Source: Methylacidiphilum kamchatkense Kam1
Lineage (GTDB): Bacteria > Verrucomicrobiota > Verrucomicrobiia > Methylacidiphilales > Methylacidiphilaceae
DNA: 64,000 nt
Assembly (NCBI RefSeq): GCF_007475525.1
Contig: NZ_CP037899.1
Span: 1,922,001 to 1,986,000 of the forward strand
Direction of reading: 5' to 3'
Shown here: positions 1 through 63,605 of the stretch, piece after piece
How positions within the stretch are numbered: position 1 is the first letter of the stretch
Layout: every line of letters begins with the position of its first letter
Translations under genes and position numbers: made by a program
The notes under the pieces: generated by a model
What the model was told of the DNA's origin: nothing
What the model saw: only the letters and a program-made list of their open reading frames with translations
Databases searched by the model: none

Positions 1-3000
1 ATAACCGCTCTACCAAGGGGTGCATTCTGTTCTCCTCCCTCTCCAAGTCCAAGGGACATTGGGAGCATACCAAGAATCATCGCCCCAGCAGTCATAAGAA
101 CCGGCCTGAGCCGAATTCTTCCAGCCATCCAAGCAGCTGTAAGAGCATCGGCTCCATTTCTCATTTCTTCATTGGCAAAAGTAATCAGCAAAATGCTATT
201 GGAAGTGGCGACTCCAACGGTCATAATCATCCCCATAAGAGAGGGGACACTAAAGGTTGTGCCAGTAAGATAAAGCATCCAGATAACACCACAAAATCCT
301 GCCGGCAGCGCCATCAGAATGATGAAAGGATCCACCCATCCTTGGAAATTGACTACTAACAAGAAATAGACCATCAGAATGGCAAAAACAATGCCAAGAC
401 CAAGACGCCCAAAGGCATTCTGCATGCTTTCGGCCTGTCCACGAATATGGATTTCATAGGCTGGAGGCAATTCCTTTTTGATGCTATTGATAACTTTTTG
501 GACGTCGTGGACTACCCCTCCCAGATCTCTTCCTTGCACATTAACAAAAACATTATAAATAGGCTTGACATTATAATGGCTGACAACGGCAGCCTTTTGG
601 GTATGCTCCACCGAAACCACGTTACTCAACAGCTGAGTCTCCTCTCTCGAAGCAAGGAGATCAGAATAATATTCCTTTATCGGGTGAAGATTGATATTGA
701 GCAAAGAGTTGTGACTATCTATCAAGTGTTGGGGAGTTTGAACAACAACCGGATAGTTGATAGTTGTTTTAGGATCGGCCCAATAATTAGGTGCCACCAC
801 ATAGCTTGAACTCAACTGGTTTAAAATGTTGTTAGCAATTTCCCTTTGATTTAACCCAAAATCAAGAGCCCGTATTCGATCTATTTTTAAATGCAGATAG
901 GGCTGTTTTTTCTGATAAATGATAACATCAGCAGCCCCTTTGATCTTTTTTACTTTTTTTTGGATTTCTTTTGCAAACCGAGACGTAATATCCGGGTCCT
1001 TTCCTACCACTTGTATATCAATGGGTGCAGCAGAACCAAAGTTAAGAATCTGATTAACCATATCTGGTGGTTGGAAGAAGAACTCGCATCCAGGGAACCT
1101 TCTTGGCAATTTCTCCCTTATCTTTTTCATGTAAGCAAATGTGGAGTGATGATCCTCTTTCAGCGATACTAAAATCTCTCCGTCAAATGTCCCTTCATTG
1201 ATATAATCACCAAAGGCCATTCCTGCAGGAAACCAAAAAGGAAGCCCTCCTAAGTCCACGATAGAATCGATTTCTTCCTCCGGAACAATTTCCTTTTTTA
1301 TGTATTCTTCAATTTCACTGAAAATTCTGGCTGTTGTTTCCAATCTAGTCCCTGGCGGGGTAAAAACATGAAGCCTAAACTTGCCAGCGTCTACAGGGGG
1401 GAAAAAATTCTCTCCTACAAAAGGCAAAGCCACAAAGGAAGCAACACCCAAGATACCAAAGAGTAAGAACACTGCTCCTTTATGATGCAGGGCCCATTTT
1501 AAAAGCTCTCCATAATTGTCCCGGAACTCTTCAAAGCGTTCCATAAACCAATGATGGAATCGCATAAAACGGGAGAGCGGTTTACCTTCGATTTTCCTTT
1601 TATGCTCGATGATTTCTTCCTGTCGAATAAGCATATTGGCCATCGTAGGAACGAGAGTCCTTGAAAGAAAATAGGAGAACAGCATCGAAAAGACGACCCC
1701 TAAGGCCATGGGAGTAAAAAGATATTTTGGAGGCCCCTCTAAAAAAATTACTGAAGTAAACACGATACAAATAGAAAGCGTTGCAACGAAGGCCGCATTG
1801 GCAATCTGCTGAGCACCATCGAGAATCGCCTGAATGAGAGGTTTCCCCATACCGTGATTTCTATGGATATTTTCCACTTCCACTGTCGCATCATCCACAA
1901 GAATTCCAACAGCCAGAGCAAGCCCTCCGAGAGTCATGATATTTATGGTATTGCCCATGCGGCTAAGAATGAAAAGAGCCACAAGAATACAAAGAGGAAT
2001 GGAAGTTAAAACGATCAAAGTCGATCTCCAGCTTCCTAAAAAGACTAAAATCATAATCCCTGTAAGGCCTGCAGCAATCAACCCTTCCTTAACCACTCCT
2101 TCTACAGAAGCCCTGACAAAGACGGATTGATCCATTAATTCTTTGATTTCTATTCCTTCTGGAGCTGAAGCTTTGGCGACCGGAAGCAGTTTTCTCAGAT
2201 TGGCGACTAACTCCAAAGTCGATGCCATACCGTTTTTCAAAAGAGGCATAATCACAGCAGGAATGCCATTATACCGTGCAAAATTCCATTGGACTGCTCC
2301 TCCATCCCTGACATACCCAAGGTCATGCATATAAACGATTTGTCCATTGACTTTTTTAATCGGAATGTCGTTCATCTCCTGAACATTCGTTGGGACATTG
2401 TTCACAGAGACTAAATAGTCGCGATCTCCTATTTTGATATCTCCGGAAGCATAATCCAAAACTTGGTTATTGATTACTTCCATTAATTCTTGAGCGGTGA
2501 TGCCTCTAGCTAACAGTTGATCTGGATAAGCATCGACACGAATAAATCGCGCTGTCCCCCCCAGGGTGGAGGAAAAGTGGCTCCTCGAATCGTAGCTAAT
2601 TCTCTTCTAAAGATATACCAGGTATAATCGAACAAATCGGCATTTGATTTCGTTTTCCCACTTACAGCCAACTGTATAACAGGGACTTCCGCTGCAGAAT
2701 AGCGCAAAACATAAGGAGGAGTAGTTCCAAGGGGCATTCTTTTTATGACAGTCTGACAGATCGATACTGCTTCCGACACGGCCAGATCGATAGGGACACC
2801 TGGTTGAAAATACATGCGAATAACATTAAGCCCATAATAAGTTCTTGATTCCATTCGGGCTACATTATCTACATACTGGGAAAGATTAAACTCGCTAAAG
2901 GTCGTAATGAAATTGGTCATATCCTCTGGAGTCAGACCCTGATAAAACCAGACAACATTTACAACGGGAATATCGATATCAGGGAAAATATCCGTTGGAG

Positions 3001-3097
3001 TTGTTTCAATAGTCAATAGCCCCATGACAAATATGAGCGCTGCCATAACAGCGACCGTATAGGGCTTTCTAAGAGCAACTTTTACCAGCCAGAGCAT
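1..3097 (-). pseudogene. RND-family efflux permease, left-truncated by the window, one frameshift
   Basis: Inner-membrane proton-driven efflux pump subunit of the AcrB/CusA superfamily. The N-terminus starts at 3097 (MLWLVKVALRKPY) with the first transmembrane helix and the DIFPDIDIPVV motif. The reading frame breaks at a run of seven C (plus strand) at 2556-2562. Adding one base restores an uninterrupted frame, which I followed codon by codon from there to position 1 with no further stop. The continued part carries the TM4 proton-relay motif GILVDDATVEVEN and the second porter half, and ends mid-protein at MSLGLGEGGEQNAP, a motif near TM11. About 1,030 codons are visible, so only the last few percent is missing. 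No membrane-fusion or outer-membrane partner lies upstream; a partner could lie beyond the left edge. The substrate (metal or drug) cannot be told from sequence alone. Confidence 0.9.
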
Positions 3098-3304
3098 ATT
3101 ATTATTTTTCCCTTAAAAAAAAGAACCCCTCAACTAAAAATAAGTTTCTTCTCGACTATAGCAGTTTCAATACCATTATGTTACAAAAATCAATTTTTTT
3201 TCCCCACCATCTCAAAGGGTTTGTGTTAAATACTCAATAAAATCATAAATAGATGAAAAACAATTTTGTAATTTGTTTCTAATTTCTTGCTATAAGAATC
3301 TTCA

Positions 3305-4271: not shown

Positions 4272-4598
4272 ATGGAAGAGGCATTAAAAAAGTCTTTAGA
4301 TCATTTGGCTCATTGGAGCAGAAGAATAAGCCTCCTCATAGCAATTGCGACCTTTTTGTATTGGATAATTATAGGCTTTAGCGAGCTGATATTAAGAGCG
4401 AGTGGTAGTGAAACAGAATTTAGCTCTGCACTGATTGGTTTTTTTACTTTTCTGGGCCTTGTCGCTAATTTTTTTGGCATTCTGTTTGGTGGCCTTAGCC
4501 TTTCATTAAAAGAGATGATTCGACCTTCCTGCTTCGTTGGTTTCTTATTAAATGGGCTTTTTTTTGTTGTTGTTCTGGCTTGTATACGATTGTTTTAA
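4272..4598 (+). CDS. small integral membrane protein of unknown function
   Basis: A 108-residue protein with a charged N-terminus and three hydrophobic segments (about residues 18-38, 52-76 and 86-107) separated by short polar loops. I recognise no domain or motif. It follows the dehydrogenase gene by 73 bases and faces the channel gene at 4672 tail to tail. The hydrophobic pattern and in-frame ATG make it a credible gene, but nothing visible suggests a role. Confidence 0.6.
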   Translation: MEEALKKSLDHLAHWSRRISLLIAIATFLYWIIIGFSELILRASGSETEFSSALIGFFTFLGLVANFFGILFGGLSLSLKEMIRPSCFVGFLLNGLFFVVVLACIRLF

Positions 4599-4671: not shown

Positions 4672-5772
4672 CTAATGGTTTTCAGATATTTTCAATTCAT
4701 TGAGATGAGAGATCATCCATGTATCCACTAGCTGAAGGATTTCTTCCCCAGGTCGAAATGCAAAAGCATAATCAATTCTTACAAAAGTTTTTTCAGATAC
4801 TTCTAATTCTCCTCCAAATTCTTTTTGAATTACATACCGTAACTGTTCTAATTCCGAAAGAACAGCATCCACCTTTTTCTCCTTAAGAGCTTCCAGAGCC
4901 TCATTTAAGGAATCAAACAGGATCGCTCGAATTTGCCTTTTTTTTAAATAACTGCTGCCCATTGAATTTTTTACAGTTGCTATGCGAATTTGAGAAAGAT
5001 CTTTAAGTTTGACTATATCCAAACTGACTTTTTCTAAAGCCACTCCTGCTGTAATCCACGCTGTAAAAAAAGACAATAGGACCACTCCAACAAACATCCA
5101 AATCATAGCTACCGTTCTACCACCAACCGTTTTGGGGACTTTATCCCCATAGCCGATAGTCGTCATGGTGACAGCAGCCCACCAAAACGCATTACCTATA
5201 CCATGAATAAAACTGCCTCCAAAATGAGGATTTTTTTTTCTTTCAAAAATCCAAACAAAAAATCCAGCAATTAACGTCAGAAATGTCATTCCACAGACAA
5301 CAGTGGCAAACTCTGGGTTAAACATAAACCGAAATACTGCTTGTAGAGAGCTAATTGGACTTGATCTATAAGCAACTCCCAACCCAGAAGTAAGAAATGG
5401 ATAACTAAAAGCGAGCTTTTTTAAAAGCTCAATATTGATTCCCATCCCTGTTACCACCACATCAACTTTCTTATCCAACAAACCGCGAATAAGGATCTGT
5501 TGGTCAGCGGACATTTCGATAAATTCATAGGGAAGATTGAGATCAGCAGCGATCCTTTTCCATAAGTCAACTGCAATTCCTGTCCATTCTCCATCCACAC
5601 CTCGGAAGGAAAACGGAGGGTCATTTCTGGTTGCAACCCTAATCTTGATATGGGTTTTTATGGGATGAGAGACTTCAGCAGAACAAAAAAATAGGAGATG
5701 AAAAGAAAAAAGGAAGCACAGGAAGGTTAATAAAACCTTTCGCAAGGGAGTTTTTTTATAATGATTTAACAC
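4672..5772 (-). CDS. GluR0-like ligand-gated potassium channel (periplasmic binding domain plus pore)
   Basis: Protein of 366 residues with the architecture of prokaryotic ionotropic glutamate receptors. After a signal sequence (about residues 1-32), the first lobe of an SBP_bac_3-type amino-acid binding domain spans about 42-140. A transmembrane helix (156-176), a re-entrant pore loop with the K+ selectivity filter TTIGYGD (204-210) and a second transmembrane helix (220-243) are inserted before the second binding lobe (about 255-360). This order, S1-M1-P-M2-S2 with no third membrane helix, matches cyanobacterial GluR0. An inner-membrane K+ channel opened by a periplasmic amino acid is the likely role; the ligand is unknown. 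The start is GTG at 5772. No transporter genes adjoin it, which argues against an ordinary ABC uptake system. Confidence 0.88.
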   Translation of the reverse strand: MLNHYKKTPLRKVLLTFLCFLFSFHLLFFCSAEVSHPIKTHIKIRVATRNDPPFSFRGVDGEWTGIAVDLWKRIAADLNLPYEFIEMSADQQILIRGLLDKKVDVVVTGMGINIELLKKLAFSYPFLTSGLGVAYRSSPISSLQAVFRFMFNPEFATVVCGMTFLTLIAGFFVWIFERKKNPHFGGSFIHGIGNAFWWAAVTMTTIGYGDKVPKTVGGRTVAMIWMFVGVVLLSFFTAWITAGVALEKVSLDIVKLKDLSQIRIATVKNSMGSSYLKKRQIRAILFDSLNEALEALKEKKVDAVLSELEQLRYVIQKEFGGELEVSEKTFVRIDYAFAFRPGEEILQLVDTWMISHLNELKISENH

Positions 5773-5848: not shown

Positions 5849-6625
5849 TCAACTTAAAGCGTTTTCCACCGCTTTTTTCCAACTCCCAAAAAACCTCTTT
5901 TTACAAGCGGCTGCAAAAAGAGCAGGATCAACCTCTCTAACCTTCGTACTCGTTAACGAAATTCCCTTTTCTTTTAACGACCTTATCCCTTGAATAATCT
6001 GCTCTTTAGACCACCTTTTTCGGTTACGAATCTTATCGTAATCCAAGCCTGCCTGTTCTATTGCCGAAGACCAACTGCCAAACCTCCTTCGAGCAATAGC
6101 AATTAAAGAACTCGCATTCTTTTCCATTTGCTTGGAACTTAAGTCCGCACCCTCCTTATACAATCTTCGAATTTCCTCAAGAATATTTTCGTTTTTCCAA
6201 GATTTATATCTATAAATGTCCTGAGGTGCCAATCCAGCAGCTAGAAGCGCATTTTTCCAACTTCCAAAATAATTGGGCCGGATAGCCGCATACACCATAG
6301 GCGCGTATTCTCCAAGCATCATGGATCGAAAAGAAAGATCCGTACCTTGGCGATGAAGCTGTTGAATCATCTGGATAATCTTTTCCTTCGACCAGGCTTT
6401 GTACCGACGGATTTCATCATAAGATAGACCAGCAGCTTCCACCGCTTTTCCCCAATTTCCAAAATATCGAACGGCAGCAGCAAGAAGTTCCTGATAATGC
6501 TTTCTCATGTAATGGGAAAAAAGAGGCTTACCAGATTCATGCCATTTTTTGATTTCTTCGAGAACCACTGCTTCGGTCCATTCTTTATTTTTCTTTATAG
6601 TTTGGTCTGTTGGTTGGATTTTCAT
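5849..6625 (-). CDS. protein of four tandem homing-endonuclease-associated (HNH_repeat-type) units
   Basis: I place the start at the ATG at 6625, which has AAAGGTG a few bases upstream, rather than a longer reading at 6673; this gives 258 residues. Almost the whole protein is four repeats of about 62-65 residues beginning at W16, W78, W143 and W205. Each has a lysine/glutamate-rich helix, then a second helix ending in FG-x-W (W58, W123, W185, W249), then an AAGL-x-x-x-x-I turn. This resembles the homing-endonuclease-associated repeat (Pfam HNH_repeat), a small helical module often linked to DNA binding. No HNH or other nuclease motif is present, so it appears to be repeats only. It is a likely nucleic-acid-binding protein of unknown function, downstream of the GT9 gene. 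Confidence 0.65.
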   Translation of the reverse strand: MKIQPTDQTIKKNKEWTEAVVLEEIKKWHESGKPLFSHYMRKHYQELLAAAVRYFGNWGKAVEAAGLSYDEIRRYKAWSKEKIIQMIQQLHRQGTDLSFRSMMLGEYAPMVYAAIRPNYFGSWKNALLAAGLAPQDIYRYKSWKNENILEEIRRLYKEGADLSSKQMEKNASSLIAIARRRFGSWSSAIEQAGLDYDKIRNRKRWSKEQIIQGIRSLKEKGISLTSTKVREVDPALFAAACKKRFFGSWKKAVENALS

Positions 6626-6707
6626 AGAATCACCTTTAGGAGATAAATATTTTAAAATTATCGTCTTTGTCAAATAAATTTAATAAATTCATCCTTTCCA
6701 TAAGCTA

Positions 6708-62858: not shown

Positions 62859-63605
62859 TTATATCCTCTTACCTTTGAGATAGATCGGCTTTGCGAAAAA
62901 ATAGCCCATATACCACCAGATAAAATACATAATGATAGATATAAACCCAGAAAAGAAAGCGGAGACTCCAAGCACGCCGCCAGCAAAGCTCCTCATTGTT
63001 CCAGTTTCTACCATTCTTAAATATTCAGGTGTTGAGGTTCGAATATACTGGTATTGAATAAGATCAGCCACACTGAGGAGTTGCCCTTCCCACAGGACAG
63101 GCACATGGTATGGCGCAATCATAGGCCAATTTGACGGATAAAAAAGCAGCCCCCATAACTCTCCACCCACTAAGGCAGTCACAACAAAGTTATTTGTAGT
63201 CATTAAGATCCCATCTAAAACAATCGCTTGCGGCAGCAATGTCTCAGGAAAGACCAAATTAATAGGAAACTTAGCCCATGCCCAAAAATTAATAATCCGA
63301 TTCAACCATTGTCCAAGCAAAAGGCCAAAGCATACCATAGTCGCCCCTGCAGGGAATTTCCAATGAGTCCATAAAGCTGCTTGGACGGCAGCAGGAAAAC
63401 AGATAGTCGCAATTGGAACTATGACTGGCCACCACATCCTATCTTTTAAATCGATCCAAAAAGACCAGTCTCCAGCAAAGAGTTGTTGATGAATCCAAGC
63501 AGCTGCTACAGTTGCAAGAAAAATGATCAAAAGGACAGCCAAATCAAAGCGTTTCCTGACAAAATCTGCTTCGATTTCCCTCTGAGTCAAGAGTTGCTCA
63601 TTCAT
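62859..63605 (-). CDS. pmoA: particulate methane monooxygenase subunit A (membrane subunit)
   Basis: PmoA/AmoA-type integral membrane subunit of 248 residues. Membrane helices are evident throughout. Landmarks are the DLKDRMWWPV stretch, the NFWAWAKFPINLVFPE segment, LDGILM and WGLLFYPSNWP, matching the verrucomicrobial type more than proteobacterial PmoA. The start is ATG 63605. It is 53 bases after pmoC on the same strand. A pmoB gene does not follow: the next genes on the left are on the other strand. The complex oxidises methane to methanol in the membrane. Confidence 0.95.
   Translation of the reverse strand: MNEQLLTQREIEADFVRKRFDLAVLLIIFLATVAAAWIHQQLFAGDWSFWIDLKDRMWWPVIVPIATICFPAAVQAALWTHWKFPAGATMVCFGLLLGQWLNRIINFWAWAKFPINLVFPETLLPQAIVLDGILMTTNNFVVTALVGGELWGLLFYPSNWPMIAPYHVPVLWEGQLLSVADLIQYQYIRTSTPEYLRMVETGTMRSFAGGVLGVSAFFSGFISIIMYFIWWYMGYFFAKPIYLKGKRI

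Follow-up and report, generated by a model that had tools for sequence, protein, structure and literature searches.

The window, by which we mean the whole 64,000-nucleotide stretch of DNA analysed here, lies in the genome of Methylacidiphilum kamchatkense Kam1, a single contig of 2,202,032 bp. It carries the gene of a GluR0-type K+ channel at 4672-5772 (-), which has a GTG start and encodes 366 amino acids. A TTG aligned with residue 10 (position 5745) is the sole apparent start in two congeners; it is a plausible alternative start in Kam1, and the true N-terminus may for this reason be 9 residues shorter than that of the GTG-started frame. That the host is a methanotroph, as an earlier note on this DNA had stated, agrees with a PmoA-like open reading frame at 62859-63605, which we recognised by eye.

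Architecture and predicted structure

The Pfam matches of the protein, SBP_bac_3 (1.9e-19), Ion_trans_2 (PF07885, 1.5e-14) and Lig_chan (1e-13), are far beyond chance. The family-3 solute-binding domain is split into two halves, S1 and S2, with the pore loop and both membrane helices lying between them, and the hydropathy profile has its peaks at residues of about 10-35 (signal peptide), 154-177 (M1) and 215-247 (M2). The signal-peptide region covers about residues 10-33 (5674..5745 (-)), given by the hydropathy peak and the N-terminal helix of the model, with the cleavage site judged by eye. It is followed by S1 at residues 44-140 (5353..5643 (-)), delimited by PF00497, the model and the match to GluR0, and by M1 at residues 153-177 (5242..5316 (-)), placed by hydropathy and the model. 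The AlphaFold model then has a pore helix at residues 188-202 (5167..5211 (-)), which leads to the K+ selectivity filter TTIGYGD at residues 204-210 (5143..5163 (-)), a sequence that is identical in 12/12 orthologs. M2 occupies residues 216-247 (5032..5127 (-)), again by hydropathy and the model, and S2 residues 256-364 (4681..5007 (-)), by Pfam, the model and the match to GluR0. The N-terminus is hydrophobic and signal-peptide-like, and extracytoplasmic N and C termini are what is expected of a GluR0-type protein.

An AlphaFold model built with 51 sequences (mean pLDDT 90.1, pTM 0.76) has the two membrane helices, with the pore helix between them, placed between the binding lobes. In a Foldseek search with this predicted model, the LBD-TMD chains of AMPA, NMDA and kainate receptors rank first and are aligned over the entire protein. 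When the same matches are compared by a second aligner, the GluR0 cores come first. The closest solved binding core is that of Nostoc punctiforme GluR0 (PDB 2pyy; Z 26.3, 26% identity, rmsd 2.2 A over 205 residues), and that of Synechocystis GluR0 (Slr1257; PDB 1ii5, 1iit) gives Z 25.5, 21% identity over the core and an rmsd of 2.5 A over 213 residues for 1ii5. With Synechocystis GluR0 the Kam1 protein shares the S1-M1-P-M2-S2 order, the GYG filter, the two membrane helices and the binding-core fold.

These results bear out the description in the earlier note, of a K+ filter between two membrane helices inserted in a binding domain with a signal peptide, in the layout of GluR0: the filter is exact, it lies between the S1 and S2 halves, and the Pfam domains, the predicted pore fold and the top structural matches are all those of a GluR0-type channel. 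The structure prediction against GluR0 that the note had proposed as a check, for which it had named the lack of a pore fold as an adverse outcome, gives both the pore fold and the GluR0 binding-core fold. By comparison with GluR0 and the ionotropic glutamate receptors (iGluRs), the channel would be a tetramer with a K+ pore re-entering the membrane from the cytoplasmic side, and closure of the periplasmic two-lobed binding domain would open this pore.

The ligand pocket

For groups 1 and 2 of the prokaryotic iGluRs, Ger et al. 2010 (PMC2950845) report the total conservation of two residues, an S1 Arg as the binding partner of the alpha-carboxylate and an S2 Asp as that of the alpha-amino group. 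The Kam1 channel has the topology and the K+ filter of Group 1, but it lacks both of these residues. The two GluR0 proteins with solved cores retain them, that of Nostoc having been solved with glutamate bound and that of Synechocystis using the pair to hold glutamate, whereas the Kam1 channel has Leu and Glu at the two positions.

This loss extends to the whole set of orthologs in the Methylacidiphilaceae. The S1 Arg is present in 80/80 fetched relatives and in 0/12 family members, and the S2 Asp in 76/79 and 0/12, respectively. At residue 116 (5425..5427 (-)), where the carboxylate-binding Arg stands in 79/79 of the other aligned proteins, the 12 family proteins have Leu (8, including Kam1), Gln (3) or Tyr (1). 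At residue 307 (4852..4854 (-)), the position of the amino-group-binding Asp, Glu is found in the five proteins of the genus Methylacidiphilum and Arg in the seven of a second genus of the family, g3. No gap interrupts either stretch in the alignment, be it in the 12 family proteins or in 79/79 of the others.

The changes are not confined to the clamp. Residue 51 (5620..5622 (-)) is a gained acidic residue, Asp or Glu in 12/12 family members and Ala, Val, Thr or Ser in most others. Residue 111 (5440..5442 (-)) is Gly or Ala in the family compared to Thr or Ser in 76/79 others, and residue 121 (5410..5412 (-)) is Ala or Ser compared to Asp in 74/79. The columns that are conserved to at least 80% in the others, yet lost in 12/12 family members, include a cluster at 109, 111, 116, 117 and 121 together with 307; the assignment of such residues to the pocket is by alignment to families with known contacts. 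By contrast, the family shows hardly any change in PPF52-54, D104, Y335 or the pore. Residue 118 is basic (Lys or Arg) in 11/12 family members, and also in 25/79 of the relatives that retain Arg116. The sensing of amino acids, which the earlier note had considered, is weakened by the absence of the GluR0 clamp from all 12 orthologs.

A few divergent relatives in the Verrucomicrobiota that have a GYGD filter lack the S1 Arg too, namely L015 (Thr), L043 (Asp), L045 (Leu), L048 (Asp) and L055 (His), and its loss may therefore be recurrent in the phylum.

Inheritance and distribution

Orthologs are present in all four other searched genomes of the genus Methylacidiphilum (74-93% identity) and in all seven genomes of g3 (42-47%), while none was found in the single genome of the same-family genus g2. 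Methylacidithermus and Methylacidimicrobium are our tentative names for g2 and g3. In ten of the ten orthologous regions that we read, the order is a heptosyltransferase-like gene, an HNH-repeat gene, the channel and a 108-aa membrane protein. The g2 genome has the heptosyltransferase-like and HNH-repeat genes, with other genes in the place of the channel. In the tree, the 12 orthologs form one clade on a long stem (SH-aLRT 97, quick search). The orthologs, the gene order and the single clade together indicate vertical inheritance within the Methylacidiphilaceae. The gene is under purifying selection, with no stops and a pairwise dN/dS of 0.06-0.20 over residues 44-354 (mostly <0.1 in the pore and mostly 0.07-0.3 in S1 and S2).

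The HNH-repeat protein directly upstream (5849-6673 (-), conserved there) contains three HNH_repeat units (PF18780); its conservation exceeds that of the channel (65-97% versus 41-92% identity), and it occurs also in the genome without the channel. The gene of the 108-aa membrane protein (4272-4598 (+)) runs towards that of the channel in each of the ten regions, and its product has no Pfam or NCBIfam match. The place of both neighbours is conserved, yet neither gives a hint of the ligand. Elsewhere in the window, a CusA/AcrB-like RND efflux pump gene at 1-3112 (-) changes reading frame at about 2555-2582, the cause being either a genuine frameshift or an error of sequencing; it is open over 1067-1068 aa in three congeners.

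The earlier note had considered such channels to be rarely reported in Verrucomicrobia. Our survey of the phylum, with 387 genomes drawn evenly and a threshold of E<=1e-20, found a relative in 29/387, and 19/25 of the newly fetched verrucomicrobial loci have the GYGD filter. A wider scan with one genome per species gave 577 matches, which may include plain K+ channels and are not a count of GluR0-like channels. The best 80 loci, most of them matched from S1 to S2, were fetched and span over ten phyla; the filter is readable in 79/80 and reads TTVGYGD in 79/79. GluR0-like channels are thus widespread in bacteria and present in other Verrucomicrobia, and their rarity is not borne out. Among the relatives in the order or phylum, L013 and L014 have an altered pore (SGVGYGD), and L017, L019-L021, L047 and L051 have no K+ filter. 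Within the literature library searched, we found no publication in which a ligand-gated channel of Methylacidiphilum is named.

Only one of the two Ion_trans_2 pores in the Kam1 genome has GYGD, and this is the GluR0-type channel. The second (L157, G000:C1:1366702-1366917) is Kch-like and has TVGYKE where the GYGD filter is expected; its homolog in the same-family genome G005 (L158) has SPVGIAVQ in place of the filter. The Kch-like vCh channel of acidophilic Verrucomicrobia, named in a paper on acid resistance (PMC9543262), is like the GluR0-type channel in its K+ channel pore domain, and both are encoded in the Kam1 genome. It is a separate gene, however, with an N-terminal pore, a cytoplasmic KtrA-like domain and, in the Kam1 genome, the TVGYKE filter, and we rejected its identification with the channel studied here.

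Discussion

GluR0-type K+ channels are already known, and what appears from the alignments to be new is the altered ligand pocket in the Methylacidiphilaceae. The clamp residues are gone while the channel appears intact, which is why we regard it as a probable orphan receptor. In our judgement it is probably a functional, vertically inherited GluR0-type channel with a pocket that would have been rebuilt in this family, both alpha-amino-acid clamp residues having gone, and it would be gated by something other than a canonically held alpha-amino acid.

Several other explanations have to be weighed. The one that fares best, although we consider it unlikely, is that the binding domain no longer binds any small molecule and instead has a part in assembly or is sensitive to pH, to ionic strength or to osmotic shifts, in which case the channel would be constitutive or physically gated. 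This would account for the loss of both clamp residues, and it has a precedent in Synechocystis GluR0, which is active only if its soluble domains are present and dimerise, and which acts in vivo in the response to KCl and volume (PMC13099474). However, purifying selection persists on S1 and S2, and the two-lobed fold, Y335 and PPF52-54 have been retained.

Somewhat more doubtful is a channel that is still gated by an amino acid, held in a shifted pose by other residues such as K/R118 and Glu307. In its fold the protein comes nearest to GluR0 cores with bound glutamate, and in Methylacidiphilum Asp is replaced at 307 by Glu, either of which can fill this role in animal receptors (PMC7882480). 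There are also basic residues two to three positions past the lost Arg, and the one at 118 might take over the binding of the carboxylate. A basic residue 118 is nevertheless common in relatives that keep Arg116, Thr111 and Asp121 have been lost too, and the seven g3 orthologs, which combine Arg307 with Leu, Gln or Tyr at 116, have kept neither half of the clamp.

The nearest known parallel to the rebuilt pocket is provided by the insect ionotropic receptors (IRs), which have divergent iGluR-like binding domains. The likeness is one of analogy only, and the IRs differ in being receptors of animals and in having one more membrane helix. To our knowledge, they also lack a GYG filter. In most insect IRs neither the Arg for the carboxylate nor the acidic residue is left, and the Arg is retained in acid-sensing IRs and diverged in amine-sensing ones (PMC7882480). 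The Kam1 channel might, by the same kind of change as in the amine-sensing IRs, be gated by an amine or another non-amino-acid metabolite. The change would consist in the lost Arg and, in Methylacidiphilum, the acidic residues at 51 and 307; we can give the idea only a low probability. Candidate ligands would then be compounds formed by amino-acid decarboxylation, for example agmatine or GABA, which figure in the systems of acid resistance that have been proposed for M. infernorum (PMC2474590).

The proposal of the earlier note, that the sensing of amino acids is linked to membrane potential or pH homeostasis in an acidophile, we regard as very unlikely. It does suit an acidophilic host, since Methylacidiphilum is adapted to pH 1-4 (PMC6549252), and it has been suggested that K+ systems of acidophilic Verrucomicrobia set up a potential that repels protons (PMC9543262). 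The systems named there are other genes, however, the clamp has been lost, and the channel gene is absent from the same-family genome G005. In an acidophile with a reversed, inside-positive potential, moreover, K+ would be inclined to leave through an open channel and the potential would thereby fall, and a simple protective role is for this reason not obvious. A decaying gene without function, which the many binding-site substitutions might suggest, is scarcely credible given the absence of stops, the dN/dS well below 1, the filter identical in 12/12 orthologs and the conserved position.

As to why the clamp might have been lost, an acid periplasm would partly protonate the carboxylate of an amino acid (pKa near 2), and this could have relaxed the selection on the Arg. 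That the acid periplasm alone makes the clamp useless is opposed by a single control: in G005, a free SBP3 protein encoded next to genes of an ABC transporter retains both the Arg and the Asp. Apart from the channel, the only SBP3 match in the Kam1 genome is weak and lies between PQQ-dehydrogenase-like and cytochrome-c-like genes; by this gene context it is probably XoxJ, and Kam1 therefore shows no other SBP3 protein of the amino-acid type.

The orphan receptor favoured above concerns the sole canonical-GYGD channel found in the Kam1 genome. Judged from its residues, this channel probably senses something other than an amino acid, because the two amino-acid-holding residues of nearly all its closest-matching relatives are gone. 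As a small protein with two membrane helices, it makes ligand, pore and gating testable. Prokaryotic iGluRs have so far been described as receptors for glutamate or amino acids with an invariant Arg/Asp clamp, and a whole bacterial family that has the channel but not the clamp suggests that iGluR-like receptors have been retuned to other ligands in bacteria too.
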